DNA of 64,000 nt from Oscillospiraceae bacterium (GTDB taxonomy: Bacteria > Bacillota > Clostridia > Oscillospirales > Ruminococcaceae): the NCBI GenBank assembly GCA_030539275.1, contig JAUNSK010000003.1, positions 128,263 to 192,262 on the forward strand. Reading direction: 5' to 3'. This document shows positions 24,192 through 51,808 of this stretch, in pieces. The notes under the pieces are model-generated. The model worked only from the letters and a program-made list of their open reading frames with translations. It was not told the DNA's origin and made no database searches. The position numbers were made by a program, and so were the translations under genes. The number at the start of each line of letters is the position of its first letter. The stretch's first letter is position 1.

Positions 24192-27100
24192 TTATTTGAT
24201 AACACCGATACCCCAGATGGTGAAGTCAGAAGAAGCATTATCCATGCTTATTGAGACATCAAGAGTACCTGATGTATTTTGTATATATGCAAGATCTGCG
24301 TCAGGACCGCCCCAGGCGTAGAGCTTGTTGCCGTTTATAGAGGATTTCTTTCCGTTTACAGTAACATTAAGAGTTCCGAGGGATGAATTCTGATTTGATT
24401 TGAATACTATAAATATTCCTTTTCCCTGTGTTGTAAATGTCATTGGAGTATTTGCTGAATTTTTCTGGAATGTAAATCCGTACGGGAATCTGTTGTAGCT
24501 GTTGTCAGTCTTGAATGAACCTGTGTTCAGATTTTTAAGTTCACTCAGAGATGCCATTGTTGCTGTTGAGTATTCACTGCCGTAAACGGTAGTTGAAGGA
24601 ATGACATAAGTATCAGATGCATTTTCTGTCTTGAGTGCCTGACGGTAGAAGTATGAGATACAGTCTGAAATAAGCTTGCATCCGTCAGCATGTGGATGGT
24701 ACTCGTCCGTATAATAATCTTCCTTCTTAAGGAGGCCTGAATCAAATGCTTTTGTAAGTGCGTTATCCATGCTTATTACAGGTACGTTATAATTCTTGCC
24801 TATGGCTGCCATCTGGGTCTGCATCGAATAGCCTCCTTTTGCACGGTTGATAAGAATTATTACGGCAGGAGCATTTTCCTGTGACAGACACTGTTTAACA
24901 AGTGATTCATAGCTCTTCTTGTAGATATCCTCAGGGTGGTCATTAACTGAGAACTCAAGGAAGATAACATCAGGTTTAGCATTCAGAATATCATTCTGAG
25001 CACGCATAAGACCAACTACTGATGAAGTTCCTGAAAGTCCCGCATTAATGTATTTAACATTGTTTCCTGTACCAAATGTATCTTTGAAATAGTTATATGA
25101 ACGATTTGCATAGCATGTATCGAGATGGTTGCCTTCAGTAATAGAACCTCCGAGATAAGCGACGGTAACATTCTGTCCGCTCTGTGCCTTTGCAACCTTA
25201 TCCCAGAGTCTGCTTGTGTTGCCCATCTGGTAAATTGAATTAGCATAGAATTGCTGCATCTGAGGCGAAGCAGTTTCCTGATATGTATCCCAGATATTAT
25301 CCGGAACAGGGAACTCATCGATAATACCCATTACAAAGCTCTGTAAAAGCTGTATGTCTTTTACCTCTGCTTTTGAGTTCTTGTCTACGTCAGCAGCAAG
25401 CTTTTCACTCTGGTCTTTAAAGCCTTCGAGTACTCTGTTTCTTCCCAGACATACATCAAGAATGTCAACCTTGCCGTCATAATTTATATCGCCTTTGGTA
25501 AGTATCTTTTCAGCCGGACCTGCTACTTGTGTACCTTCCTTAGCGCCTATTGCTTCATCTACATAAAAATCTGTATCAGAGCTTTCAGTTTCAATATACA
25601 GATTCAATTCGGTTGCATCAGCAGGAATAGTATAGCCTGAGTTTGCAAGCTGTACCCATGATCCGCTCATAGAAGAACCCTGTGCAACCTGTGAATAATT
25701 TGTATCTCCGTTACTGTCAACATACTGAAGCTTCATAAAGAATGTTTCACTGGTCTGTGTGTTCTGCATTACATCAGCACTGAAGCTGTATGTTTTGCCC
25801 GGCACAAACTGTGTTTCGTTTAAAGCTAATGAAGCACCGTTCCATGCTGCAGTTCTGCCTGAAACAAAGAGGGAACCAGTTCCATTGTAAGCCTCCTTGC
25901 TGCTTGCTGCAACAGTTGCAGCACCTCTTCCTGTAAAGGATTCCTTGCCGCTCTCAAATGTACAATGGAATATGTAATCATTATTATCCGGATCGGTAAC
26001 ACCTGGACCATCAGGATTATCTGTACCGGGCTCTGTTGACGAAACACCGCCGAACTGCCACCAGTCAGCGTTAAAGAGATATCCGCTGCTGCCTGAAAAT
26101 CTCATAAACAGATCATGTGTGCCTTTTGCTCCGCTGACAGGTGTAGTGAATGTTTTCCATGACTGCCAGCCGTCAGTTCCGGTAATATTGCACACGCCGA
26201 TAATAGGTCCTGAAATACTGTCAAGATGGAGCTCTATTGCACCGCCGCTCGTATTTGAAGCAGCACTTATTGTAAAGCTGTCAGCACCTGTGCTGAAGTC
26301 AACACCGCTTAATTTAACATAATCACCGTTTTCAATGTTTGCTATATTAATGCCGCCGCTGCTGCATTTTTCAGTTTCAATTCCGGACTCCCAGCTCATA
26401 GTCTCTGCCTGGGTTTTTTTATAAGGATTCAGATATGAGATCTGTTTCGGTCCGTCTTCGGTTCTTGCAATCTTCGGAATGCTGCCGTCGGCATTATAAG
26501 AAAATTCTTCGACTGCTACGCTTCGTGTAAATCCGCCTCCGCCCGGGAGAAGACCGTTATGATAGAAGAAATATGATTTTCCTTTATAGTCACATACACC
26601 GCTGTGATTTGTGAAGCTGCCTCCGCCTGACCCCATTATCTCGCCGCGGTATGTCCATGGTCCCTCAGGTGAGCTGCTTGTTGAGTAGCAGATATTTTCA
26701 GGAATGCCTGATGCAGCGTACATCAGATAATAAAGACTGCCTCTCTTATAGAACCAGGGACCCTCTTCATAAAGAGTCTTATGACGGTCATCACCCTCGC
26801 TCCTTGTTCCGAATCCTGAGGTAGTTAAGTTGATTTTATTTATCTGTCCCGTATATGAGATCATGTCTTCATTGAGCTTTACATAGTATGGCTGAGGATT
26901 CCCGAAGTAAAGATATGCCTGATCATTATCATCAATATAAACTGTAGGATCGATATAATCCCAGTTAGGACCACAGAGAGGTTTTCCCAGCGCATCCTTA
27001 AACGGGCCTTCCGGACTGTCTGCAACAGCTACTCCTATTGCTCGTCCTCCTCCGGCTGCGGGAACAAGTGTAACATACATGTAGAACTTACCGTTTCGCT

Positions 27101-27416
27101 CAATACACTGGGCAGCCCACGCACTGTCTGCTTCTGCCCATGCAAAGTCATCACATGAAAGAATAGTGCCGTGATTTGTCCAGTTTTTCATATCGGTCGA
27201 TGAATAGCACTGCCAGTCAGGCATAGTAAAGTATGTAGAGCCGTCTGCATCATGACCGGTATAGACATAACAGGTATTATTGTATACCATTGGTGCCGGA
27301 TCAGAAGTATAAATAGTCTGGACTATCGGATTTTCAGCATGACAGACATATGCTCCGACGCCGCAGGCCGCCGTCAGTCCGACTGCTGCTGCAATAACCG
27401 GAATAAAACGTTTCAA
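24192..27416 (-). CDS. Multimodular cellulosomal enzyme: GH43-CBM6-CBM-dockerin-SGNH esterase
   Basis: 1074 residues, secreted (signal peptide about 1-27). Modules: GH43 (about 30-330) with catalytic base in SDPAPM, the DYIDPTVY aspartate and YEEGPW acid; CBM6 (about 333-460) starting QAETMSWESG; a CBM4/9/22-like beta sandwich (about 480-635) starting FHCTFESG; type I dockerin (about 638-705) with two Ca-loops, GDINYDGKVD and ADVDKNSKAE; SGNH esterase (about 745-925) with GGSITEG, SVND and DEYHPH blocks; and an unassigned C-terminal beta domain. The activity is probably arabinofuranosidase/xylosidase plus acetyl-xylan deacetylation. An internal dockerin places enzymes on both sides of the scaffold anchor. 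Start is TTG, seven bases after AAGGAGG. Confidence 0.92.
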   Translation of the reverse strand: MKRFIPVIAAAVGLTAACGVGAYVCHAENPIVQTIYTSDPAPMVYNNTCYVYTGHDADGSTYFTMPDWQCYSSTDMKNWTNHGTILSCDDFAWAEADSAWAAQCIERNGKFYMYVTLVPAAGGGRAIGVAVADSPEGPFKDALGKPLCGPNWDYIDPTVYIDDNDQAYLYFGNPQPYYVKLNEDMISYTGQINKINLTTSGFGTRSEGDDRHKTLYEEGPWFYKRGSLYYLMYAASGIPENICYSTSSSPEGPWTYRGEIMGSGGGSFTNHSGVCDYKGKSYFFYHNGLLPGGGGFTRSVAVEEFSYNADGSIPKIARTEDGPKQISYLNPYKKTQAETMSWESGIETEKCSSGGINIANIENGDYVKLSGVDFSTGADSFTISAASNTSGGAIELHLDSISGPIIGVCNITGTDGWQSWKTFTTPVSGAKGTHDLFMRFSGSSGYLFNADWWQFGGVSSTEPGTDNPDGPGVTDPDNNDYIFHCTFESGKESFTGRGAATVAASSKEAYNGTGSLFVSGRTAAWNGASLALNETQFVPGKTYSFSADVMQNTQTSETFFMKLQYVDSNGDTNYSQVAQGSSMSGSWVQLANSGYTIPADATELNLYIETESSDTDFYVDEAIGAKEGTQVAGPAEKILTKGDINYDGKVDILDVCLGRNRVLEGFKDQSEKLAADVDKNSKAEVKDIQLLQSFVMGIIDEFPVPDNIWDTYQETASPQMQQFYANSIYQMGNTSRLWDKVAKAQSGQNVTVAYLGGSITEGNHLDTCYANRSYNYFKDTFGTGNNVKYINAGLSGTSSVVGLMRAQNDILNAKPDVIFLEFSVNDHPEDIYKKSYESLVKQCLSQENAPAVIILINRAKGGYSMQTQMAAIGKNYNVPVISMDNALTKAFDSGLLKKEDYYTDEYHPHADGCKLISDCISYFYRQALKTENASDTYVIPSTTVYGSEYSTATMASLSELKNLNTGSFKTDNSYNRFPYGFTFQKNSANTPMTFTTQGKGIFIVFKSNQNSSLGTLNVTVNGKKSSINGNKLYAWGGPDADLAYIQNTSGTLDVSISMDNASSDFTIWGIGVIK

Positions 27417-36603: not shown

Positions 36604-39600
36604 ATGAGAGCAAGCGGAATACTGATGCATATTTCTTCACTTCCGTCGGAGTACGGAATAGGTACACTTGGCAAAGAAGCGTACAGATTTGTAGATTTTC
36701 TTGTTGAGAGCGGCCAGACATACTGGCAGATACTTCCTGTATGTCCTACCGGTTACGGTGATTCGCCATACCAGAGTTTTTCTACATTTGCCGGTAATCC
36801 TTATTTTATTGATCTTGATATACTTAATAAGGAAGGCCTGCTTGACAAGTCTGATTATGCAGATCTTGACTGGGGCAGCAACATAAAACTTACTGACTAT
36901 GAAATAATGTACTATACAAAATATCCTGTTCTGCGGAAAGCATTTATAAGGTTCAAGGAACAGATTCCTTATGATTTTGAAGTTTTCAGTCGTGATAATG
37001 CTTACTGGCTTGATGATTATTGCGCGTATATGTCGCTCAAGGATTATCATGAAGGAAAAGCCTGGTCACAGTGGGATAAAAACTACCGGGATAAAGGATC
37101 AAGGGAAGTATCAGAGTTTATAGAAATTCATAAAAATGATACCCTGTTTTATAAAATGCTTCAGTATCTGTTCTACAAACAGTGGAATGCACTGAAAAAA
37201 TATGCAAACAAAAAAGGAATATGGATAATAGGAGATATTCCGATCTATGTAGCAGCAGACAGTGCAGATACCTGGTCAGCACCTTCACAGTTTCAGCTGG
37301 ACAGTGATTTTCTGCCGGTTCGTGTAGCCGGCTGCCCTCCTGACAGTTTTTCAGCAACCGGACAGCTGTGGGGAAATCCTCTCTATGACTGGGATAAAAT
37401 GAAGCAGGACAGATACAGCTGGTGGATCACCAGGATGAAACATGCCTCTTGCGTGTATGATGTAATAAGAATAGATCATTTCAGAGGTTTTGATTCGTAC
37501 TATTCGATACCATATGGAAATACGACAGCTGAGAATGGTGAATGGGTAAAAGGACCGGGTATTGACTTTATAAATGAAATAAAAAGCAGACTTTCAGATG
37601 TTAGAATCATCGCAGAGGATCTGGGATTTCTGACAGAGTCGGTAGTAAAGCTGCTTCATGATTCCGGCTTTCCGGGAATGAAGGTTCTGCAGTTTGCATT
37701 TGATTCACGGGAAGACAGTGATTATCTTCCGCACAATTATCCGCATAACTGTGTAGTATATACAGGAACCCATGACAATGATACAATACTAGGCTGGCTT
37801 GAAAATGTAGCGCCGGCTGATCGTGAGCTTGCTGTAAAATATATGAGACTCAATAAAGAAGAGGGATACTGCTTCGGTATGATCTGTACAGCAATGGCAA
37901 GTGCCGGTGATACAGTAATAATAACAATGCAGGATCTCCTTGAGCTCTCAAGTGAGGCACGTATGAATACTCCGTCAACATGTGGCGGAATAAACTGGAG
38001 ATGGAGAGCCCGGCCGGACTATATTACTAAAGAGCTTACAAGAAAACTATATACATGTACTGAGGTTTATAAAAGATTGCAGAGGAAAAGTGATATGAGT
38101 TTTGATTTAACGAACAGTATAGAATTTTTAGCTAAAGCACAATACCGCAAACAGGTTCAGGAGCTTGATGTACATGAGCTTCATAACTGCCTGTCAAGAT
38201 CAGTAATGGCAGATATTGCAGACAGCTGGGAGAAGAGTTCATACAGACATAAACAGGGAAGATGCGCATACTATTTCTCGGCAGAATTCCTTGTCGGACG
38301 TCTGATCTTCAATAATCTTCTGTGCCTTGGAAAAATTGAGGAGGCAAGGGAAGCTCTTGAGAAGTTCGGCTTCGATCTTTCATGTATGGAAGAAATAGAG
38401 GACGCTGCACTTGGCAACGGCGGTCTGGGAAGACTTGCAGCATGCTTTCTTGATTCGGCAGCAACGCTGTCTATTCCTCTTGACGGATACGGCATCAGAT
38501 ATAAGTACGGAATATTCAGACAGAGTATAGAAAACTGTGAGCAGACTGAATATGCAGATGACTGGACTCATTTCGGAGATCCATGGTCTGTACGGCGGGA
38601 AGAGGATACCCAGATCGTTGAGTTTGCAGACTTCAGGGTCAAGGCTGTACCATATGACATGCCGGTTATAGGGTATATGACTGAGAATAAGGGTACGCTC
38701 AGACTATGGCAGTGCGAGCCTGTTGAAGAATTTAACTTCACGGCATTCAATAATCAGAAATATGATGTTTCTGTTGAGGATAAAAACAGGGCTGAAAATA
38801 TTTCACGTGTACTGTATCCGAATGACTCAACAGATGACGGCAGAAAACTGCGCCTGAGTCAGCAGTATTTTTTCTGCAGTGCATCGCTTAAGGATATAAT
38901 CAAAAGCTATAAGAAGTTTCACGGCGACGATTTCTCGCAGTTCAGTGATTATGTAACTATTCAGTTAAATGATACACATCCGGTCATTTCCGTCCCTGAA
39001 CTTATACGTCTTCTTACGACACAGGAAAAAATGTCATTTGAAAATGCACTTGCAGCAGCAATGAAAACATTTAACTATACAAATCACACAGTAATGCTTG
39101 AGGCACTTGAAAAATGGGATCTGGAGCTGATGGAGAGCCTTCTGCCTGAAGTAACAGCCATAATCGTCAAAATAAATGCTGCAATGCAGGCTGAGTTTAA
39201 AAGCAGTGTCGATAAAAAAATACTCGATAAGATAAAAATTATCAGTGACGGCAAAGTGAACATGGCATATCTTGCGATATACTGCAGCTCTTATGTAAAT
39301 GGCGTTGCACAGATCCATACTGATATTCTGAAAAATGATGTTCTCAAGGAATGGTATTCGATCTATCCTCAGCGATTCAGAAACAAAACAAACGGTATAA
39401 CACAGAGAAGATGGCTTGCACTGTGCAATGCACAGCTTTCGTCCCTGATCACAGAGCTGCTTGGAAATGATGAGTGGATCACAGATCTCACACAGCTTAA
39501 AAATCTTGAAAAGTATCAGGATGATGATGAGATCATCTCACGCTTTACGCTTATAAAGGCGCAAAAGAAGAGGGAGCTGTGCGAATATATATTAAAACAG

Positions 39601-40449
39601 GAAAAAACGTCTATAGATGAAAACAGTATATTTGATATACAGATCAAACGTCTGCATGAATACAAGAGACAGTTTTTAAATATTCTTGCGATCATTGAGC
39701 TTTATTTTGAGATCAAGGAGGGATCACTTACGGATTTTGCTCCTACAACATTTATCTTCGGTGCAAAATCAGCTCCGGGATATGAGAGAGCAAAGGGCAT
39801 TATCAAGCTTATCAATACAGTAGCTGCGGTTATCGAAAATGATCCTGAGGTCAATAAAATTATAAAGGTAATATTTATTTCTAACTATAATGTTTCATAT
39901 GCTGAAAAACTTGTTGCAGCTGCAGATGTTTCAGAGCAGATCTCAACTGCCGGAACAGAGGCGAGCGGAACCGGAAATATGAAGTTTATGTTAAACGGTG
40001 CAGTTACGCTCGGAACTCTTGACGGAGCAAACGTTGAGATAGTCAGAGAAGCCGGTGAGGAGAACAACTATATTTTCGGTGCAAAGGTCGGGGATATAGA
40101 AAGTATCCGTGATAAATATGACCCGACACAGCTGTATGAAAATGATAAAAAAATCAAGAGAGTTCTTGATTCGCTTATTGACGGAACATTCAGTGATGAC
40201 AGCGGAATATTCAAAGAACTCAGAAACTCGATACTCAAGGGCGCTTCATGGCATAAACCTGACCAGTACTTCCTTCTTCTTGATTTTGAAAGCTATCTTG
40301 AAGAGAAGATACGCGTAAACAGGGAATACAAGGACACAAAGAGCTTTATGAAAAAATGCTGGATCAATATGTGCAATGCAGGATTTTTCTCCTCAGACAG
40401 AACAATTGCAGAATATGCAAAGGATATATGGAAGATAGATAAAATTTAA
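36604..40449 (+). CDS. Bifunctional 4-alpha-glucanotransferase / alpha-glucan phosphorylase (MalQ-MalP fusion)
   Basis: 1281 residues in one frame. Residues 1 to ~490 are a complete GH77 amylomaltase with VIRIDHFRGFDSYY (nucleophile Asp), IIAEDLGFLTESV (acid/base Glu) and YTGTHDNDT. Residues 498 to 1281 are a complete GT35 phosphorylase with DDWTHFGDPW, QLNDTHPVI, KRLHEYKRQFLN and EASGTGNMKFMLNGAVTLG, whose Lys binds pyridoxal phosphate. Together they would turn imported malto-oligosaccharides into longer glucans and glucose 1-phosphate. Residue 498 is an ATG (38095) preceded eight bases earlier by AGAGGA, so a free phosphorylase could also be made by internal initiation, or the site is a relic of two ancestral genes. 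Both parts are of normal length. Confidence 0.95.
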   Translation: MRASGILMHISSLPSEYGIGTLGKEAYRFVDFLVESGQTYWQILPVCPTGYGDSPYQSFSTFAGNPYFIDLDILNKEGLLDKSDYADLDWGSNIKLTDYEIMYYTKYPVLRKAFIRFKEQIPYDFEVFSRDNAYWLDDYCAYMSLKDYHEGKAWSQWDKNYRDKGSREVSEFIEIHKNDTLFYKMLQYLFYKQWNALKKYANKKGIWIIGDIPIYVAADSADTWSAPSQFQLDSDFLPVRVAGCPPDSFSATGQLWGNPLYDWDKMKQDRYSWWITRMKHASCVYDVIRIDHFRGFDSYYSIPYGNTTAENGEWVKGPGIDFINEIKSRLSDVRIIAEDLGFLTESVVKLLHDSGFPGMKVLQFAFDSREDSDYLPHNYPHNCVVYTGTHDNDTILGWLENVAPADRELAVKYMRLNKEEGYCFGMICTAMASAGDTVIITMQDLLELSSEARMNTPSTCGGINWRWRARPDYITKELTRKLYTCTEVYKRLQRKSDMSFDLTNSIEFLAKAQYRKQVQELDVHELHNCLSRSVMADIADSWEKSSYRHKQGRCAYYFSAEFLVGRLIFNNLLCLGKIEEAREALEKFGFDLSCMEEIEDAALGNGGLGRLAACFLDSAATLSIPLDGYGIRYKYGIFRQSIENCEQTEYADDWTHFGDPWSVRREEDTQIVEFADFRVKAVPYDMPVIGYMTENKGTLRLWQCEPVEEFNFTAFNNQKYDVSVEDKNRAENISRVLYPNDSTDDGRKLRLSQQYFFCSASLKDIIKSYKKFHGDDFSQFSDYVTIQLNDTHPVISVPELIRLLTTQEKMSFENALAAAMKTFNYTNHTVMLEALEKWDLELMESLLPEVTAIIVKINAAMQAEFKSSVDKKILDKIKIISDGKVNMAYLAIYCSSYVNGVAQIHTDILKNDVLKEWYSIYPQRFRNKTNGITQRRWLALCNAQLSSLITELLGNDEWITDLTQLKNLEKYQDDDEIISRFTLIKAQKKRELCEYILKQEKTSIDENSIFDIQIKRLHEYKRQFLNILAIIELYFEIKEGSLTDFAPTTFIFGAKSAPGYERAKGIIKLINTVAAVIENDPEVNKIIKVIFISNYNVSYAEKLVAAADVSEQISTAGTEASGTGNMKFMLNGAVTLGTLDGANVEIVREAGEENNYIFGAKVGDIESIRDKYDPTQLYENDKKIKRVLDSLIDGTFSDDSGIFKELRNSILKGASWHKPDQYFLLLDFESYLEEKIRVNREYKDTKSFMKKCWINMCNAGFFSSDRTIAEYAKDIWKIDKI

Positions 40450-43202: not shown

Positions 43203-43829
43203 ATGAAAAAAACCAAAAGAACACTTATTACAGCAGCAGTACTTACTACAGCAGCACTTAATCCGAAATTATCCAGTCAGGCTGATGATAATGCTGAAGC
43301 TATGGCACCTGTGTATGGTCCGCCTTCATATTTTTATGAGAAAGGCGATGTGAATATGGACGGCAAAGTCAATATTCTTGACTGCTGTCTGATGCGAAGT
43401 GCAGCACTTGGTCAGAAAGGTTATACTGAGGATTCACTTACTGATATAAACACAGACGGCATAATAGATTCCAGGGATGTTCTTGCAATTCAGAACTTTA
43501 TGCTTGCAAAAAGTCAGTCAGTACAATATCGTGAAGATGAGACTACACAGCCTGAATACGGAGTTGTGACTGCAACCGAAACAACGACCCAGCCAGTATA
43601 CGGAACTATGCCGGCTACAGAAACAACGACCCAGGCAGTACCAGTATACGGAACAATGCCGGCTACCGAAATGTCTGAAGAGACAACAACGACCCAGCCG
43701 GTTTATGAATCCTTTCCTGTTACGGAAGAACCGATAGTTACATCACCTCAGCCAGTATATGGAACATGGCAGGCTGATGAAGAAACTGAGCCTGAATATG
43801 AAAATTCCAATAATGATGAGGTGAAATAA
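43203..43829 (+). CDS. Secreted dockerin protein with Tyr-Gly repeats, candidate RiPP precursor 1
   Basis: 208 residues. A basic, moderately hydrophobic N-terminus (about 1-26) looks like a signal peptide. It is followed by APVYGPPSYFY (36-45), a complete type I dockerin (about 47-104; GDVNMDGKVN and DINTDGIIDS calcium loops), then a Thr/Glu/Pro-rich tail with five PxY repeats: QPEYGV, QPVYGTMPATE, VPVYGTMPATE, QPVYES and QPVYGTW (Tyr 119, 133, 149, 168, 186) and a final EPEYEN. Its TAA overlaps the ATG of a radical SAM/SPASM enzyme (TAATG). Repeats of one aromatic motif directly before a SPASM maturase are typical of multi-core RiPP precursors; the dockerin would fix the product to a cellulosome. 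Modification is inferred. Confidence 0.8.
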   Translation: MKKTKRTLITAAVLTTAALNPKLSSQADDNAEAMAPVYGPPSYFYEKGDVNMDGKVNILDCCLMRSAALGQKGYTEDSLTDINTDGIIDSRDVLAIQNFMLAKSQSVQYREDETTQPEYGVVTATETTTQPVYGTMPATETTTQAVPVYGTMPATEMSEETTTTQPVYESFPVTEEPIVTSPQPVYGTWQADEETEPEYENSNNDEVK

Positions 43830-44881
43830 TGCTTAACATAATTCAAAAAAAGAAGCGCATGCGTGAACTGACCGCCGCTGAAAAAGTTACATTAAAATAT
43901 CTTTTTCTTGAACTCACAGTACGCTGCAATGAGCATTGTCTTCATTGCGGAAGCAGGTGCGGAGATGTCAGCGCCGAAGAACTTACCCCAACACAATATC
44001 ACGATTTTCTCAAACAAACAGCAGAGGACTTTGACACAAAGAAGTTTACTCTTTGTGTAACCGGCGGTGAGCCGCTGGTACGCAGTGATTTTTTTGATAT
44101 TATGTCTGATGCCAATGATCTCGGCTATCTCTGGGGTATGACTTCAAACGGAATACTTATTACACCTGAAGTAGCCAAAGACCTGAAACGCTGCGGAATG
44201 AAGACGATCTCTATAAGTATTGATGGTACTGAGGCCACTCACGATGCTTTCCGTTCAACTCCGGGCGGATGGAAAAAAGCTATGGATGGAATAGAGAACC
44301 TTATAAAAACGGGCGGATTCAAGCATATTCAGGTTACAACAGTGGTAACTCATCAGAATATCACTCAGCTCGATGAGCTTTATAATATATTCAGGGATAT
44401 GGATATCGACTCGTGGAGAATAATTAACATCGATCCTATAGGAAGGGCAAAGCTGCACCCCGAGCTTCTGATGACTCAAGAGGACTATGTAACTATGTTT
44501 GAGTACATCCGTAATAAACGTATGGCTGCTGAGCCTGTGACATACGGATGTGAACATTATCTTGGTATGGACTACGAACGTGAGGTACGTGACTGGTACT
44601 TTCACTGCGTAGCAGGCAAGGAGATCGCAAGCATAATGAGCAACGGTGATATCACAGCCTGCCTTGATATAGAACGCAGACCTGAGTTTATAATGGGCAA
44701 TATTTTTAAGGACCGTCTTATTGATGTCTGGGAAAATGGTTTTCAGATATTCAGAAAAGGACTCAGCTGTGAAAACTGCCAGAAGTGCGGAGATTTCGAG
44801 TTCTGCAAGGGCGGAGCTTATCATACATGGAATTTTGATGAGAACAGACCTAATGTATGTTTTAAGGACGTGCTGTTCTGA
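43829..44881 (+). CDS. Radical SAM/SPASM peptide maturase 1
   Basis: 350 residues. The radical SAM cluster motif is CNEHCLHC (CxxxCxxC, about 33-40), with GGEP at about 79-82. The C-terminal SPASM region has Cys in YGCEHY, HCVAG, ITACLDIER, CENCQKCGDFEFC and a final NVC near the end, enough for two auxiliary iron-sulfur clusters. Such enzymes install carbon-carbon or thioether crosslinks in ribosomal peptides. It is 1 nt overlapped with the dockerin-repeat gene, the predicted substrate. It resembles enzymes annotated as FibroRumin-system maturases, recalled from memory. No separate leader-binding domain is evident. About 85% identical by eye to the copy at 45790. Confidence 0.92.
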   Translation: MLNIIQKKKRMRELTAAEKVTLKYLFLELTVRCNEHCLHCGSRCGDVSAEELTPTQYHDFLKQTAEDFDTKKFTLCVTGGEPLVRSDFFDIMSDANDLGYLWGMTSNGILITPEVAKDLKRCGMKTISISIDGTEATHDAFRSTPGGWKKAMDGIENLIKTGGFKHIQVTTVVTHQNITQLDELYNIFRDMDIDSWRIINIDPIGRAKLHPELLMTQEDYVTMFEYIRNKRMAAEPVTYGCEHYLGMDYEREVRDWYFHCVAGKEIASIMSNGDITACLDIERRPEFIMGNIFKDRLIDVWENGFQIFRKGLSCENCQKCGDFEFCKGGAYHTWNFDENRPNVCFKDVLF

Positions 44882-44898
44882 TCACTTAATACATACTG

Positions 44899-44934
44899 AA
44901 AACAGCGGATCTCAGAATAGAGATTCGCTGTTTC
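44899..44934 (+). terminator. Terminator after dockerin/rSAM unit 1
   Basis: AAAACAGCGGATCT pairs with AGATTCGCTGTTT. A similar hairpin ends unit 2. The following 44935-45115 is AT-rich with no gene. Confidence 0.75.
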
Positions 44935-45115
44935 TTAAACTTCGCAGATTTTTTTATCTCAGTTACTATTCAGATCAAAAAAATCAATATTTCTATGAAG
45001 GGATCATAGGAAAAGGTTTTTGACCGCATATAAGTACTGTATGACTATACTCTATTGATACCGCTCCTATAAAACATAATGTTTGATTATCAGATAGCAT
45101 ATTATTGAAAATAAT

Positions 45116-45150
45116 TGTAGCTTTCAGCATTTATACAAAGTATTACTAAT
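45116..45150 (+). promoter_or_regulatory. Conserved upstream element of dockerin/rSAM unit 2
   Basis: TGTAGCTTTCAG, 11 bases, AGTATTACTAAT, matching 43086-43120 in both boxes and spacing, 75 bp before the precursor ATG. Confidence 0.6.
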
Positions 45151-45224
45151 ACAGTATGCATTATATCAGATGCTTTGTTACATCCAGTAGCAATAAAAAG
45201 TAAAGTATGTGAAGGAGAATTGTA

Positions 45225-45785
45225 ATGAAAAAAACCAGCAGAACAATAATGACTGCAGCTGTTCTTACAGCAGCGGCAACTCTTAATCCTGCGGCATCAG
45301 TTAATTCAGGAGAGAACGTTGATGCTATGGCTCCTGTATACGGCCCGCCGTCATATTTTTATGATAAAGGCGATGTCAATACGGACGGAAAAATCAACAT
45401 TCTTGATTACTGTCTTATGAGAAATATTGCCCTTGGCGGCAACGGATATTATGAGAGCAGTCTGACTGATGTTAATCAAGACGGTATAGTTGACTCCAGG
45501 GATGTTTTAGCTCTCCAGAATTTCATGCTTACAAAAGCAGGTGAAGTTGTTTTTCCTGAAGAGACTACCATGCCGGTAACTCAGCCTGCTTATGGAACAT
45601 ATCCTGTGACATCATCGGTGGTACAGACTAAATACGGAGTGTTTCCTGCAACAGTTCCGAACACTGAAATTACCGGGACAAATCCTGAAGAAACCGAACC
45701 CCCTGTAACGACAATACCTGATAAATGGGGTACTCAGTCAATTCCGGGTGAGACCGATGAGGGCGGACATCAGATAACGAGGTGA
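45225..45785 (+). CDS. Secreted dockerin protein with Tyr/Trp-Gly repeats, candidate RiPP precursor 2
   Basis: 186 residues, paralogue of the protein at 43203. Signal-like N-terminus, the identical APVYGPPSYFY segment (36-46), a type I dockerin (about 48-105; GDVNTDGKIN and DVNQDGIVDS loops), then a shorter tail with three repeats: PAYGTYP, TKYGVFP and DKWGTQS. The leader and dockerin are well conserved while the tail differs in length and sequence, as expected if the tail is a diversifying product region. In unit 2 the third motif has Trp in place of Tyr. It is followed four bases later by its own radical SAM enzyme. AAGGAG precedes the ATG. Confidence 0.8.
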   Translation: MKKTSRTIMTAAVLTAAATLNPAASVNSGENVDAMAPVYGPPSYFYDKGDVNTDGKINILDYCLMRNIALGGNGYYESSLTDVNQDGIVDSRDVLALQNFMLTKAGEVVFPEETTMPVTQPAYGTYPVTSSVVQTKYGVFPATVPNTEITGTNPEETEPPVTTIPDKWGTQSIPGETDEGGHQITR

Positions 45786-45789
45786 CATA

Positions 45790-46842
45790 ATGCTTAATAT
45801 AATGCAAAAAAAGAAACATATGAGAGAGTTGGCAGCGACTCAGAAATATAAACTGAATCATCTTTTTCTTGAACTGACTGTACGATGCAATGAGCGCTGT
45901 CTGCATTGCGGTAGTAAATGCGGTGATGTTAAAGCCGAAGAAATGACGCCTTTGCAGTATCATGAGTTTCTTAAACAGACAGCAGAGGATCTTGATACCA
46001 GAAGCTTCACTCTGAATATAACAGGCGGTGAACCTCTGGTACGAAGTGATTTTTTTGATATTGTGTCTGATGCCAGTGATCAGGGATATCTCTGGGGAAT
46101 GACTTCAAACGGAACTCTTATTACTCCTGATGTAGCAAAAGATCTTAAACGCTGCGGCATGAAGACTATATCAATAAGTATTGACGGCAATGAAGCAACA
46201 CATGATGCATTCAGAAGAACGCCCGGAGGCTGGAAGAAGGCAATGGACGGAATTGAGAATCTTATCAGAACAGGCGGATTTCAGCATATTCAGGTCACAA
46301 CAGTAGTTACCCATCAGAACATTGGACAGCTTGATGAACTATACAGTATTTTCAAGGAAATGGATATAGATTCATGGAGAATAATTGAAATGGATCCGAT
46401 AGGCAGAGCGACTCAGCATCCGGAGCTTCTGATGACCAATGAGGATACTGTCACAATGATGGAGTATATCAGGAATAAACGAATGGCGGCTGAACCGGTT
46501 TCTTACGGTTGTTCACATTATGTTGGCATGGATTACGAACGTGAGATACGTGACTGGTATTTTCACTGTGTAGCTGGCAAGGAAATTGCCAGCATCATGT
46601 GTAACGGCGATATTACTGCCTGTCTCGATATTGAACGCAGGCCTGAGTTTATTATGGGTAATATTTTTAAAGACCGTTTCAGAGACGTCTGGGAAAATGG
46701 TTTTCAGATATTCAGAAAAGGAGTCACATGTGAAAACTGTGAGAAGTGCAGCGATTATGAATTCTGCAGGGGCGGTTCATATCACACGTGGAATTTTGAT
46801 GAGAACAGACCTAATGTATGCTTTAAAGACGTTCTGTTCTGA
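45790..46842 (+). CDS. Radical SAM/SPASM peptide maturase 2
   Basis: 350 residues, close paralogue of the enzyme at 43829: same length, CNERCLHC cluster motif, GGEP, and the same SPASM cysteines including CENCEKCSDYEFC and a final CFKDVLF ending. GAGGTG lies before the ATG at the end of the precursor gene. Having a dedicated enzyme for each precursor suggests recent tandem duplication of the whole unit, with each maturase matched to its substrate. Terminated at 46862. Confidence 0.92.
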   Translation: MLNIMQKKKHMRELAATQKYKLNHLFLELTVRCNERCLHCGSKCGDVKAEEMTPLQYHEFLKQTAEDLDTRSFTLNITGGEPLVRSDFFDIVSDASDQGYLWGMTSNGTLITPDVAKDLKRCGMKTISISIDGNEATHDAFRRTPGGWKKAMDGIENLIRTGGFQHIQVTTVVTHQNIGQLDELYSIFKEMDIDSWRIIEMDPIGRATQHPELLMTNEDTVTMMEYIRNKRMAAEPVSYGCSHYVGMDYEREIRDWYFHCVAGKEIASIMCNGDITACLDIERRPEFIMGNIFKDRFRDVWENGFQIFRKGVTCENCEKCSDYEFCRGGSYHTWNFDENRPNVCFKDVLF

Positions 46843-46984: not shown

Positions 46985-47746
46985 TCAAGGGTTAGAGGGA
47001 CTGAAAATTTCATCAGGTCTGTCACCGTTCTTTATTTTTTCAAGAAGTTCACAGATACTCTGACTATCATAATCAGATAGGATTTTCTTAACTTCTTCTT
47101 TGCTGTCAAGATAGTTATAGTATCTCTGTGTGTCATCTGATGCATAAAAGTATTCAGATTTTGCTAACTTATTAAGATCAGTTGAGGATATCATTTCTTC
47201 CGGGAACTCATCTATATGGCTTAAGTAATCATATCTCTCCCTGTAGTCATTTTGCAGGGCAAGGCCTTCGTCGAACCAGACAGGAAGTTCTGACCTTGAA
47301 AGAAATTTTCCTGAGTCAGTTCTTTCGTGCGTTTCAGCATGAGTCAATTCATGGGCAATGATATCTGTTGTCAGCCATTTTGAAGAAATAGATGTATAAC
47401 ACTTAACACCACCTAACATGACAATCATTGTATCATGATCTCCTCCGAGTCTGATGATCTTCTTCTGGTTATCAGTGATTATTATTACAGGTGAACTTTT
47501 GGTCACTCCGAAGTAATCAGAAACTCTGCTGTGTGCTTCATCTATTATGTCAAGAGCTTCCTGTTTGTCTCCGGTATAATCCTTATCAAACCATACATTA
47601 TCTGCTGCCTGTTCAAAACCGTGAAATTTTACGGACAGTCTGTATCCGACCGTGTTGAAATTAAAATATATGAGACTTGCAGCTATTAAAATCATGATCA
47701 CTGATATAAATAATACTGATGCTATTTTCGCTTTTTTGCTTTTCAT
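46985..47746 (-). CDS. Membrane-anchored gluzincin metalloprotease (peptidase MA-like)
   Basis: 253 residues. One N-terminal membrane segment (about 9-29), then an extracytoplasmic protease domain with the zinc motif HELTHAETH (HExxH, about 130-138) and the third ligand Glu in PVWFDEGLALQ (about 158). This is the peptidase MA family pattern. It is third in a minus-strand operon after an ECF sigma factor and an anti-sigma/signal-peptidase fusion, so it may be a sigma target, or process envelope proteins or the fusion itself. AAAGGTG precedes the ATG. Confidence 0.85.
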   Translation of the reverse strand: MKSKKAKIASVLFISVIMILIAASLIYFNFNTVGYRLSVKFHGFEQAADNVWFDKDYTGDKQEALDIIDEAHSRVSDYFGVTKSSPVIIITDNQKKIIRLGGDHDTMIVMLGGVKCYTSISSKWLTTDIIAHELTHAETHERTDSGKFLSRSELPVWFDEGLALQNDYRERYDYLSHIDEFPEEMISSTDLNKLAKSEYFYASDDTQRYYNYLDSKEEVKKILSDYDSQSICELLEKIKNGDRPDEIFSPSNP

Positions 47747-49222: not shown

Positions 49223-51808
49223 ATGAAACGACTGGTTATCGGAGTTCTGGCTCATGTTGACTCAGGAAAAACTACTCTTTCAGAGGGTATGCTTTACTGC
49301 TGCGGTGCAATAAGAAAGCTTGGACGTGTAGACCATAAAAATGCATTTCTTGATAATTATGAGCTTGAGAGGGAAAGAGGCATCACTATATTTTCGAAAC
49401 AAGCTGTAATAAACTATGGAGATACAGAAATAACACTGCTTGACACACCGGGGCACGTAGACTTTTCTACAGAAATGGAACGTACACTCCAGGTACTTGA
49501 TTATGCAGTTCTCGTAATAAGCGGGAGTGACGGAGTCCAGAGCCATACAAGGACGCTGTGGAAACTGCTTGCGCACTATAATATTCCTGTTTTCATATTT
49601 GTTAATAAGATGGATATCGCGGGTTCTGACAGACAGGTTCTGATGGACGAACTAAAAAGCAAGCTGTCTGAGCAATGCTGTTTCTTTGATGATGATGACA
49701 AGTCAGAGCAGTTTTATGAAGATATAGCACTTGGCAGTGAGGAGCTGATGCAGGAGTTTCTGGATAAAGGTGTTGTGCCTGAAGATCAGATAGTAAGCAG
49801 CATAAAAAAACGTGAGATCATTCCATGCTGTTTTGGCTGTGCACTGAAGCTGCAGGGGGTTGAGAAATTTCTTGAGCTTCTTGACAGATATACAATAGCT
49901 CAGGATGATAAGTCTGAATTTGCCGCAAAGATATTCAAGATCTCCGAGGATGATCAGGGCAACAGACTTACATTTATGAAAATAACCGGCGGTTCGCTCA
50001 GGGCAAGAACAATGCTGTCACATCAGGATAAATGGACTGAGAAGATCAATCACATCCGTATATACAACGGGGCAAAGTTTTCGCAGACAGCCGAAGCTTT
50101 TCAGGGAATGGTATGTGCAGTAACAGGACTTACTCAGTCATATCCGGGTGAAGGTCTGGGAGCTGAGGCTGACAGTGAATCATCTATGCTTGAACCTGTT
50201 CTGACATATATGGCAGTAATAAATGATGATACAGATATAAATACTGCACTCAAGGCATTCAGAAGGCTTGAGGATGAGGATCCGGCTCTTCATATCATAT
50301 GGAATGAACAGTTAAGGGAAATACATGTTCAGGTCATGGGGGAGATTCAGCTTGAAATACTCAGGAGTGTTCTGAAGCAGAGATTTTCAATGGATGCTGA
50401 TTTTGTTCATGGAGGAATTGCATATAAGGAGACGATTGCATCACCGGTGGAGGGGGTAGGTCATTATGAACCTCTTCGTCATTATGCTGAGGTCCATCTG
50501 CTTCTCGAACCGGGTGAGCAGGGCAGCGGTCTTCAGTTTTTCTCTGACTGCAGGGAAGATGATCTTGATAAGAACTGGCAGAGACTGATAATGACACATC
50601 TCAGGGAAAAAACTCATTTAGGTGTTCTTACAGGTTCACCGGCAACAGATATAAAGATCACACTCAAAGCAGGACGTGCCCATCTCAAGCATACTGAGGG
50701 CGGAGACTTCAGGCAGGCTACCTACAGGGCTGTAAGACAGGGCCTTAGATCTGCTGAGAGTATACTGCTTGAACCCTGGTATAATTTTATACTTGAAATT
50801 CCTTCAGAGTATATCGGTCGTGCAATGGCTGATCTGACAAGAATGGAATGTGAATTTACCCCGCATCAGATAAATCCTGATAATACCGCTGTTATAACCG
50901 GAAATGCTCCTGTAGCATCGATACGTGACTATCAGACTGAGATAACCGGATATACAAAAGGAAAAGGGAAACTTATGTGTTCTCTCAGAGGATATGCCAG
51001 ATGCCATAATGAAGAAGAGGTAATTGAAAAAATAAATTATAACTGTGACAGTGATACCGATAACTCATGTGACAGTATCTTCTGTTCGCACGGAGCCGGG
51101 TTTGTAGTAAAGTGGGATCATGTACCGGAATATATGCATATTGCCAGTGTTCTGAAAACGCAGGAAAATGAACAGCCTGAACCCAGGACACAAAAGACGC
51201 AGACAGCAGTGAATGAGTACCGCAGGCAGTCTGATCAGGATAAGGAACTGATGGACATTTTTGAAAAGACATATGGAAAAGTCAATCAGGAAAAAAAGAA
51301 AAATGCCTTCAGGACAAAAAAAGACAAGGAGCTGACCGACGTTTCATACCGTGGTAAACCTCTGCCGGAGGGACCAGAGTATCTGCTCGTTGACGGATAT
51401 AATATAATCTTTTCGTGGGATGAACTAAAAAAAGAAGCTGCGGTTAATCTTGATCTTGCCAGAAGCATGCTGATAAATATAATGAGCAATTATCAGGGGA
51501 TAAAACAGTGTGAGGTCATAGTCGTGTTTGATGCGTATAAGGTGAAAGGTGCATCCCGTGAAATAGAAAGATTTCATAATATCAATGTTGTTTATACAAA
51601 GGAAGCAGAAACTGCTGACATGTATATAGAAAAGGTTACTCATCAGCTCAGTCATCAGCACCGTGTAAGAGTTGCAACATCTGACGGACTCGAGCAGATA
51701 ATAATCCTCGGAAACGGAGCTTTCAGGATTTCATCAGCTGAACTGTACGACGAGGTAAGACTTATGCAGAAGACTATAGATGATTTTATTAAATTCAATA
51801 CAAAATAA
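49223..51808 (+). CDS. TetM/EF-G-like ribosomal GTPase fused to a YacP/Rae1-type NYN nuclease
   Basis: 861 residues. The N-terminal ~640 form a translation GTPase of the tetracycline-resistance ribosomal-protection type: AHVDSGKTTLSEG (G1), RGITIFSKQA (G2), DTPGHVDFSTEMER (G3), NKMD (G4) and EF-G-like domains. A charged linker (about 645-705) leads to a C-terminal NYN domain (about 708-855) with LLVDGYNIIFSWDEL, VVFDAY and ATSDGLEQ, the YacP family whose member Rae1 cleaves mRNA in the ribosomal A site. Both halves act on the ribosome, so the chimera may dislodge or cut at stalled ribosomes. Tetracycline protection is possible but such chromosomal proteins are often not resistance genes. Confidence 0.92.
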   Translation: MKRLVIGVLAHVDSGKTTLSEGMLYCCGAIRKLGRVDHKNAFLDNYELERERGITIFSKQAVINYGDTEITLLDTPGHVDFSTEMERTLQVLDYAVLVISGSDGVQSHTRTLWKLLAHYNIPVFIFVNKMDIAGSDRQVLMDELKSKLSEQCCFFDDDDKSEQFYEDIALGSEELMQEFLDKGVVPEDQIVSSIKKREIIPCCFGCALKLQGVEKFLELLDRYTIAQDDKSEFAAKIFKISEDDQGNRLTFMKITGGSLRARTMLSHQDKWTEKINHIRIYNGAKFSQTAEAFQGMVCAVTGLTQSYPGEGLGAEADSESSMLEPVLTYMAVINDDTDINTALKAFRRLEDEDPALHIIWNEQLREIHVQVMGEIQLEILRSVLKQRFSMDADFVHGGIAYKETIASPVEGVGHYEPLRHYAEVHLLLEPGEQGSGLQFFSDCREDDLDKNWQRLIMTHLREKTHLGVLTGSPATDIKITLKAGRAHLKHTEGGDFRQATYRAVRQGLRSAESILLEPWYNFILEIPSEYIGRAMADLTRMECEFTPHQINPDNTAVITGNAPVASIRDYQTEITGYTKGKGKLMCSLRGYARCHNEEEVIEKINYNCDSDTDNSCDSIFCSHGAGFVVKWDHVPEYMHIASVLKTQENEQPEPRTQKTQTAVNEYRRQSDQDKELMDIFEKTYGKVNQEKKKNAFRTKKDKELTDVSYRGKPLPEGPEYLLVDGYNIIFSWDELKKEAAVNLDLARSMLINIMSNYQGIKQCEVIVVFDAYKVKGASREIERFHNINVVYTKEAETADMYIEKVTHQLSHQHRVRVATSDGLEQIIILGNGAFRISSAELYDEVRLMQKTIDDFIKFNTK

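Follow-up and report, generated by a model that had tools for sequence, protein, structure and literature searches.

Each of the two tandem gene pairs described here probably consists of a substrate and a PlpX-like splicease, the enzyme excising tyramine at the X-Tyr-Gly (XYG) sites of a cellulosome-targeted protein, where the resulting ketoamides may inhibit proteases. The substrates would probably be modified proteins and not released RiPP peptides. Both pairs lie on the plus strand of the window, i.e. the whole stretch of 64,000 nucleotides that was analysed, at positions 43203-44881 (unit 1) and 45225-46842 (unit 2).

The unit 1 substrate (43203-43829, 208 aa) has an N-terminal signal or leader, assigned by eye, followed by a V-Y-G-P-P motif (residues 37-41, 43311-43325), a type I dockerin (residues 47-100, 43341-43502; Pfam PF00404, E 6.5e-13) and a tail (43503-43826) with EYG, VYG, VYG, a degenerate VYE, VYG and a degenerate EYE. 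The radical SAM/SPASM enzyme of this unit, the candidate splicease, spans 43829-44881 (350 aa). Its ATG overlaps the TAA stop codon of the substrate gene by 1 base, and a GAGGTG within the end of the substrate gene (43818-43823) is its likely ribosome-binding site. Unit 2 is built alike. Its substrate (45225-45785, 186 aa) again starts with a signal or leader recognised by eye and continues with V-Y-G-P-P (residues 38-42, 45336-45350), a dockerin (residues 48-101, 45366-45527; PF00404, E 5.5e-12) and a tail with AYGTYP, KYGVFP and KWGTQS (45528-45782). The candidate splicease, also of 350 aa (45790-46842), follows after 4 nt and is likely served by the GAGGTG at 45779-45784. In both units the V-Y-G-P-P motif precedes the dockerin, and several relatives have it at the same place. 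Both enzymes exceeded the Pfam cut-offs of Radical_SAM (PF04055) and SPASM (PF13186), and both small proteins that of Dockerin_1, covering profile positions 1-56 of 57. The exact coordinates and the Pfam domains thus confirm the claim of the first-pass annotation that a SPASM enzyme overlaps or abuts a dockerin protein in two tandem units. Its statement that leader and dockerin are constant while the tail varies was borne out. The enzymes are 85% identical, with dS of 1.56 and dN of 0.09.

Five Tyr-Gly sites were found in unit 1 (VYGPPS, EYGVVT, VYGTMP twice and VYGTWQ) and three in unit 2 (VYGPPS, AYGTYP and KYGVFP). The window proteins also contain degenerate forms, i.e. VYES (VYESFP) and EYEN (EYENSN) in unit 1 and KWG (KWGTQS) in unit 2. 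The repeat numbers given earlier, five and three with one Trp, hold only if the V-Y-G-P-P ahead of the dockerin is counted, as is evident from the sites of each unit. The PxYGxxP consensus proposed at the same time describes some sites, but not others such as TKYGVFP. Compared with shuffled sequences, the five YG of unit 1 (shuffled mean 0.53) were reached in 0 of 20,000 shuffles and the three of unit 2 (mean 0.78) in 639 of 20,000, which is weak on its own. Yet the enrichment is solid because it is conserved in relatives. A chance origin of the repeats was ruled out by these relatives and by background segments, unit 2 being weak by itself. An 11-base YGPP pattern occurred at 11 places of the own genome, two of them in the window proteins, versus 23 places for the reversed control. 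When the own genome was searched with the unit 2 protein, the third-ranking hit (E 3.5e-9) lay within a frame of 1084 aa.

The pairing of enzyme and YG protein is, judged from gene neighbourhoods, a trait of the lineage. The enzyme was present in 10 of 11 genomes of the genus, and the same 10 encode short YG-dockerin proteins. Three of these 10 lack an adjacent repeat protein, and each has YG-dockerin proteins elsewhere. Homologous enzymes in genomes without any repeat protein, which according to the first-pass annotation would speak against the idea, were looked for in the genus and did not occur in any of the 10 enzyme-bearing genomes. In the family outside the genus, all nine enzyme-bearing genomes of one search had an adjacent YG-site protein. 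A further 18 loci from 10 genera, fetched only after the idea had been formed and not independent (six from one genus, g586, and three from another, g131), showed a YGPP neighbour by rule in 13 cases, an XYG protein by eye in four that had failed the rule (L111, L123, L124 and L125) and a contig end in one (L112, which was kept). A nineteenth locus, L110, was dropped as it is the same as L028. In the order and class searches the best five candidates of most genomes were scored. As a background, a similar YGPP-neighbour rule was satisfied by 0 of 103 window segments.

The carriers of the sites differ between a lipoprotein, a DUF805 membrane protein and a dockerin protein, while the enzyme and the V-Y-G-P-P motif stay. 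In 48 carrier ORFs, which were hand-picked for having YG and include near relatives and some frames longer than the gene, 142 YG sites had V at -1 in 96, P at +1 in 111 and P at +2 in 112. The system is not specific to cellulosomes, for in many genomes enzymes of this lineage are paired with lipoproteins and membrane proteins. We tentatively suggest that a single splicease lineage may have made the XYG splice site a portable tag for display, with the V-Y-G-P-P array passing between lipoproteins, membrane proteins of the DUF805 type, short transmembrane proteins and the dockerin proteins of cellulolytic Ruminococcus. On a cellulosome, such a multivalent array of ketoamide warheads might amount to a backbone-edited equivalent of the cellulosomal serpins, pluggable into a cohesin.

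The best NCBIfam model of the window enzymes was TIGR04133 with 273.5 and 272.4 bits, and neither enzyme reached the cut-off of any NCBIfam family (425 for TIGR04133). TIGR04103, presumably identical to IPR026482, ranked fourth and fifth with 129.0 and 122.5 bits, far short of its cut-off of 725; it was outscored by the models of the heme b synthase AhbD (139.8 and 136.8 bits) and of mycofactocin (138.8 and 149.9 bits). The FibroRumin model suggested initially, TIGR04136 (rSAM_FibroRumin), was absent from the best 25 NCBIfam models listed for the window enzymes. In the own genome it matched only two other loci (C33 and C2), both below cut-off, and not the window enzymes, so that their membership in this family is not supported. 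Ten distant radical SAM sequences with solved structures were found (best E 1.5e-15). A phage origin was rejected; 29 phage records matched, all with less than 60% identity among the matches listed (10 of 29).

In a tree of 49 enzymes, 37 labelled XYG and the unlabelled L101 formed one clade with a support of 97/83, some labels being soft: the partner of L033 is an unannotated ORF of 68 aa, that of L096 one of three DUF1843 YG peptides, those of L111 and L123-L125 were judged by eye and the substrate of L006 is in trans. The XYG label arose once in 98% of the 200 bootstrap trees; the 11 other enzymes, among them MftC and NirJ, form an outgroup taken entirely from plasmid records and lacking AhbD and PlpX. 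This second tree takes in 9 of the 18 later loci; PqqE, two Rhizobium enzymes and one enzyme of the own genome were removed from it for their long branches, and neither tree contains near-copies or L016. In the first tree (38 rows) the XYG label needed two changes, because L101 was counted there as 'other'. The clade of the window enzymes includes a Nostoc nif11-class maturase 3, which scored 853 bits, above the TIGR04103 cut-off, and adjoins a Nif11 precursor with the core ALYGLPPELF.

This grouping and the XYG motif favour tyramine excision of the PlpX type, and for the same reasons the earlier idea of a crosslink with a loss of 2 Da per repeat has become less likely. In that case Tyr would be linked by the SPASM enzyme to a residue close by, for example through an ether or as a cyclophane. 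Many SPASM enzymes make such links and repeated cores would fit; moreover, aromatic residues are found near YG, with Y, W or F at +4 in at least 36 and F or Y at +5 in at least 55 of the 142 sites, as counted from the eight commonest letters. On the other hand, what stays constant is X-Y-G with Pro, and not a pair of residues a fixed distance apart. The models of crosslinking maturases also scored low relative to TIGR04133 (WgkB 100.3 and 99.3, PapB 72 and 81.3, DynA 80.9 and 75.3 bits), although WgkB was not far below TIGR04103. We consider crosslinking unlikely. Some other chemistry at Tyr, e.g. decarboxylation or the formation of a C-C bond as in mycofactocin, would be in line with the higher score of the mycofactocin model and with the preference for V-Y. 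MftC acts on a C-terminal Val-Tyr, but the Tyr of the present sites lies within the chain, with Gly next to it, YG having been the selection criterion, and then mostly Pro; in addition, the two MftC enzymes fell outside the XYG clade. Such chemistry is quite improbable in our estimate. Finally, the repeats could be an ordinary Thr/Pro-rich linker with the enzyme acting elsewhere. The tails are of low complexity and unit 2 is weak by shuffling, but it is the V-Y-G motif that is common to carriers and phyla, not the linker or the fold, and the sites are found on both sides of the dockerin in the window proteins and ahead of it in L010 and L012. A mere linker appears very improbable.

If tyramine excision is correct, the dockerin protein would be made in the cytoplasm, where the splicease, by analogy with the chemistry of PlpXY, would remove tyramine at the XYG sites and leave alpha-keto-beta-amino acids, with a mass change of about -135 Da (-135.07) per site. 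The modified protein may then be exported by its N-terminal signal, and its dockerin could dock onto a scaffoldin cohesin. The own genome contains seven cohesin matches, five of them above cut-off, and many dockerins. As the least certain step, the most likely task of the exposed ketoamides might be to inhibit cysteine or serine proteases in the vicinity of the cellulosome by reversible covalent binding. In two congeners (L006 and L009) the gene directly after the enzyme encodes a C1 (papain-family) protease with a dockerin (Pfam for L006). The available parts of the literature report protease inhibition by spliceotides and a proposal that serpin-dockerins protect cellulosomes. These points speak against a different job of the same splicing, in which ketoamides would bind amines or other nucleophiles, be it on mucus, on plant fibre or on proteins nearby, for adhesion or stabilisation. 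We regard this job, which overlaps with protease inhibition up to the function, as possible, on the doubtful side of even. It is favoured by the many unrelated surface carriers of the lineage and by the fact that, by pattern, a C1 protease lies in the retrieved flanks of just three of eight genus loci (L006, L007 and L009). The genome of the window has five C1 proteases, none on the contig of the window.

Were protease inhibition by spliced dockerin proteins true, cellulosomes would bear backbone-edited proteins with keto-beta-amino acids, and spliceotides would gain a concrete role, the control of proteases around a fibre-degrading machine. A 2022 review, in the portion available, states that no natural spliceotide has been isolated and that the biological role is not known. 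The enzymes would be compact (350 aa) and work on a short portable tag without a visible RRE partner, and the mass signature of about -135 Da per site could be searched for in secretome data of rumen Ruminococcus. The open-licence literature contained no mention of FibroRumin or TIGR04133; dockerin, radical SAM, RiPP and Ruminococcus never appeared together in it, nor did splicease and lipoprotein. The present family may have been reported elsewhere. Radical SAM and dockerin are co-mentioned there, as listed, for three C. thermocellum transcriptomes and one Klebsiella genome.

PlpXY, the splicease of the Pleurocapsa plp cluster, and its spliceotides were reportedly described by Morinaka in 2018 and Scott in 2022. 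PlpX requires the RRE protein PlpY. Neither a PlpY-like gene nor an RRE-sized extension was seen in the two units by a profile search that is insensitive, because the small Nostoc partner P0009 also lacked an NCBIfam match. The accessible portions of the published work assign PlpX to IPR026482 and describe the removal of C8H9NO; the published tags contain LYGLPI and GYGVVFP, and PlpXY is selective in that FtsZ was modified at two of the 16 insertions of a tag listed, GPIRPLYGLPI at G55 not being among them. This selectivity and the higher scores of the AhbD and mycofactocin models count against the splicease reading of the window enzymes. As far as these portions go, PlpXY resembles the window units in the radical SAM/SPASM enzyme and in having X-Tyr-Gly sites close to a Pro; a substrate can hold several of them, and the leader is dispensable. 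In contrast, the window substrates are dockerin proteins without a Nif11 or nitrile-hydratase leader, and searches with E values up to 1 in NCBIfam and up to 0.1 in Pfam gave no match of either one to a leader family.

The FibroRumin maturase is likewise a SPASM enzyme, and its name points to rumen fibre degraders. Mycofactocin MftC shares the action of a SPASM enzyme on Val-Tyr and differs in the architecture of the substrate. TIGR04133 (rSAM_w_lipo), known from Bacteroidota and Treponema, is the best-scoring family and has an exported-type partner with a YG motif near the anchor cysteine; the lipoproteins beside such enzymes carry CEYGSP, CEYGTP or CYGMP. That partner is a 'radical SAM-associated putative lipoprotein', whereas the window partner is a multi-site dockerin protein. 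Ruminococcus flavefaciens has serpins and cysteine peptidases with dockerins, which, as described in the available part of the source, share the targeting of protease control to the cellulosome. There the inhibitor is a folded serpin, while here it would be a modified tail.

The two tandem units lie on the forward strand. Unit 1 consists of a dockerin protein of 208 amino acids (43203-43829), the candidate substrate, and an enzyme of 350 (43829-44881), the candidate splicease; in unit 2 the corresponding genes encode 186 (45225-45785) and 350 amino acids (45790-46842). In unit 1 the stop codon of the small protein and the enzyme start overlap by 1 base, in unit 2 the genes are separated by a 4-nt gap, and in both GAGGTG is located directly 5' of the enzyme start within the 3' end of the substrate gene. 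Both small proteins start with a putative signal sequence, recognised by eye as basic and then hydrophobic. APVYGPPSYF follows, then a type I dockerin that scored above the Pfam cut-off, and a tail rich in T, P and E. The two share 58% identity, the front being conserved and the tail variable. In both enzymes the radical SAM and SPASM domains scored above the Pfam cut-off. The enzymes share 85% identity with a dS of 1.56 and a dN of 0.09, and thus selection has long kept both copies. A putative HExxH peptidase (46985-47746; Peptidase_MA_2, below cut-off) is convergent directly downstream of unit 2. Two further single ORFs were assigned by Pfam, a 4-alpha-glucanotransferase/glycogen phosphorylase fusion of 1281 amino acids (36604-40449) and an EF-G-like GTPase of 861 amino acids with a C-terminal YacP-like NYN domain (49223-51808).

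The units with repeated Tyr-Gly (YG) sites that the first-pass annotation had noted are confirmed. Unit 1 contains five Tyr-Gly pairs compared to 0.53 expected, and none of 20,000 shuffles reached five. The three pairs of unit 2 (0.78 expected; reached by 639 of 20,000 shuffles) are unconvincing alone. That the YG sites are more than chance follows from the relatives, which settle the question. Among 12 loci from named genomes an adjacent YG-site protein was found in nine (L015 judged by eye), in L006 and L009 none was adjacent, and in L016 it appeared only with TGA read as glycine. The enzyme was present in 12 of 197 family genomes, own genome included, and 11 of these carried an adjacent YG-site protein, the exception being G096. 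Newly drawn genomes, with the own genome counted each time, had the enzyme in 6 of 394 (order) and 16 of 391 (class). The draw yielded 19 loci, one a duplicate of an earlier locus; of the 18 left, from 10 genera, 13 had a YGPP neighbour by a mechanical rule, four further had an X-Tyr-Gly (XYG) protein recognised by eye, and one starts at a contig end. As a control, the window outside the locus was divided into 103 overlapping 3-kb segments, none of which satisfied a similar rule. Enzyme and motif are strongly associated.

Within the genus, 10 of 11 genomes possess the enzyme, and a YG-dockerin gene adjoins it in seven. In the other three (G096, G593, G598) there was none within the fetched flank of the enzyme; YG-dockerin proteins are encoded elsewhere in each, in G096 at least five short ones, the dockerin of one being below cut-off. 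The genome lacking the enzyme, G600 (88% complete), gave five matches to the YG-dockerin profile. The four listed of these sit in frames of 312 to 973 amino acids, and the two loci fetched among the matches held no YG-dockerin. This pattern indicates that an enzyme can have several substrates, in trans, and, on the evidence of 11 genomes of which some are incomplete, that enzyme and substrate are gained and lost together.

No curated model reached its cut-off on the window enzymes. The best was TIGR04133 (rSAM_w_lipo) with 273.5 and 272.4 bits (cut-off 425); TIGR04103 (nif11-class maturase 3), which we take to be identical with IPR026482, followed with 129.0 and 122.5 bits in 4th and 5th rank behind AhbD and mycofactocin. 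The proposed kinship to FibroRumin maturases did not hold, as TIGR04136 matched two other loci of the own genome, both below its cut-off, and not the window enzymes. In a tree of 49 enzymes, 37 labelled XYG (the labels of L033, L096, L111 and L123-L125 being soft and the substrate of L006 in trans) and the unlabelled L101 formed one clade with support 97/83. MftC, NirJ, TIGR04053, TIGR04347 and four others fell outside; the outgroup comprised 11 enzymes, all from plasmid records and none of them AhbD or PlpX. Of 200 bootstrap trees, 98% gave the clade a single origin. An earlier tree with 38 enzymes had given a clade of 29 (97/92) with L101, then labelled 'other', inside.

The carriers vary while the motif is kept. 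In lipoproteins it is often 2-5 residues past the lipobox cysteine (L014, L026, L108, L114) or much farther away (L109, L113). Other carriers are DUF805 membrane proteins (L013, L025, L028), short transmembrane-type proteins (L015, L123, L125) and, in L023, five tandem small proteins of one genome, mostly lipoprotein-like. In L010 and L012 the YG repeats are N-terminal and the dockerin comes last. In 48 hand-picked carrier ORFs with 142 YG sites, V precedes Tyr in 96, and P is the first residue after Gly in 111 and the second in 112. At a greater distance, lipoproteins with CEYGSP, CYGMP and CEYGTP are neighbours of annotated TIGR04133 enzymes in Parabacteroides and Treponema and of an enzyme from Phocaeicola, itself unannotated, that groups with them in the tree. 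A Nostoc enzyme with 853 bits for TIGR04103 (cut-off 725) adjoins a Nif11-type precursor with a C-terminal ALYGLPPELF.

Several loci merit separate mention. L111 (1029-3186) encodes a family enzyme whose C-terminal region is JAB/MPN-like (E 4.4e-4, below cut-off) next to an FHA-domain protein with VLYGCPNA, a possible cytoplasmic substrate. The Tropicibacter enzyme of L101 (206-3982), which falls in the XYG clade, has as neighbours a trypsin-like peptidase protein and a phosphotransferase that carries DFYGLPPGTRF at its N-terminus. DUF1843 peptides lie by nif11-class-3-like maturases in L096 (1196-1366) and L100 (483-952); PYGAGI near the N-terminus in one of three of L096, and LYGGAM and PYGVAI in two of three of L100, suggest that these may be XYG substrates, too. 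The enzyme's relative in L016 (3287-4330; CAMKSF010000026.1) is on a contig labelled Clostridia with a GC of 25% and has 13 in-frame TGA at Gly positions. SR1/Gracilibacteria read TGA as Gly, which seems to apply here, and the label may reflect a misbin. Read in this way, at least five small YG proteins surround the enzyme on the same strand.

The own genome has seven cohesin matches, five above cut-off, and the unit 2 protein has 83 matches there (E up to 10), among those listed mostly larger frames. A multimodular dockerin protein in the window (24192-27416) combines GH43, CBM6, CBM4_9, dockerin and GDSL lipase. Five papain-family proteases are encoded in the own genome; one (L103) ends in a dockerin-like motif, and other loci were truncated at the flank. 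The enzyme gene is directly followed by that of a dockerin-bearing papain-family protease in the congeners L006 and L009 (by Pfam for L006); in L038 and L039 a protease of this kind also follows, truncated at the locus end. Another C1 protease precedes the substrate gene of L007 by about 2.3 kb. By pattern, a C1 protease was nearby in three of eight genus loci of the named-genome set and absent from the window. Published accounts describe spliceotides as protease inhibitors (PMC11117315; PMC10373908) and propose serpin-dockerins as protectors of the R. flavefaciens cellulosome (PMC5301203). Because of these neighbours and precedents, protease inhibition is our leading guess for the modified sites, perhaps an even bet if splicing is right.

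The first-pass annotation had taken the repeats to be crosslinked. We consider this less likely than splicing, i.e. PlpX-like excision of tyramine at XYG leaving ketoamides, and read the window enzymes as probable spliceases; the predicted mass change is about -135.07 Da per modified site. The known system behind this reading is PlpXY (PMC11002830; PMC10373908), and PlpX is a member of IPR026482. PlpXY has an RRE partner, PlpY, and a Nif11 or nitrile-hydratase leader, whereas no RRE partner is visible for the window enzymes and their substrates are without such a leader. A ten-residue tag is described as enough without leader in some proteins, with 2 of 16 listed insertions in FtsZ accepted, and the tag letters LYGLPI and GYGVVFP resemble the window sites VYGPPS, VYGTMP and KYGVFP. 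Taken together, the units would combine splicease chemistry with an anchor-swapped surface carrier, here in its dockerin form.
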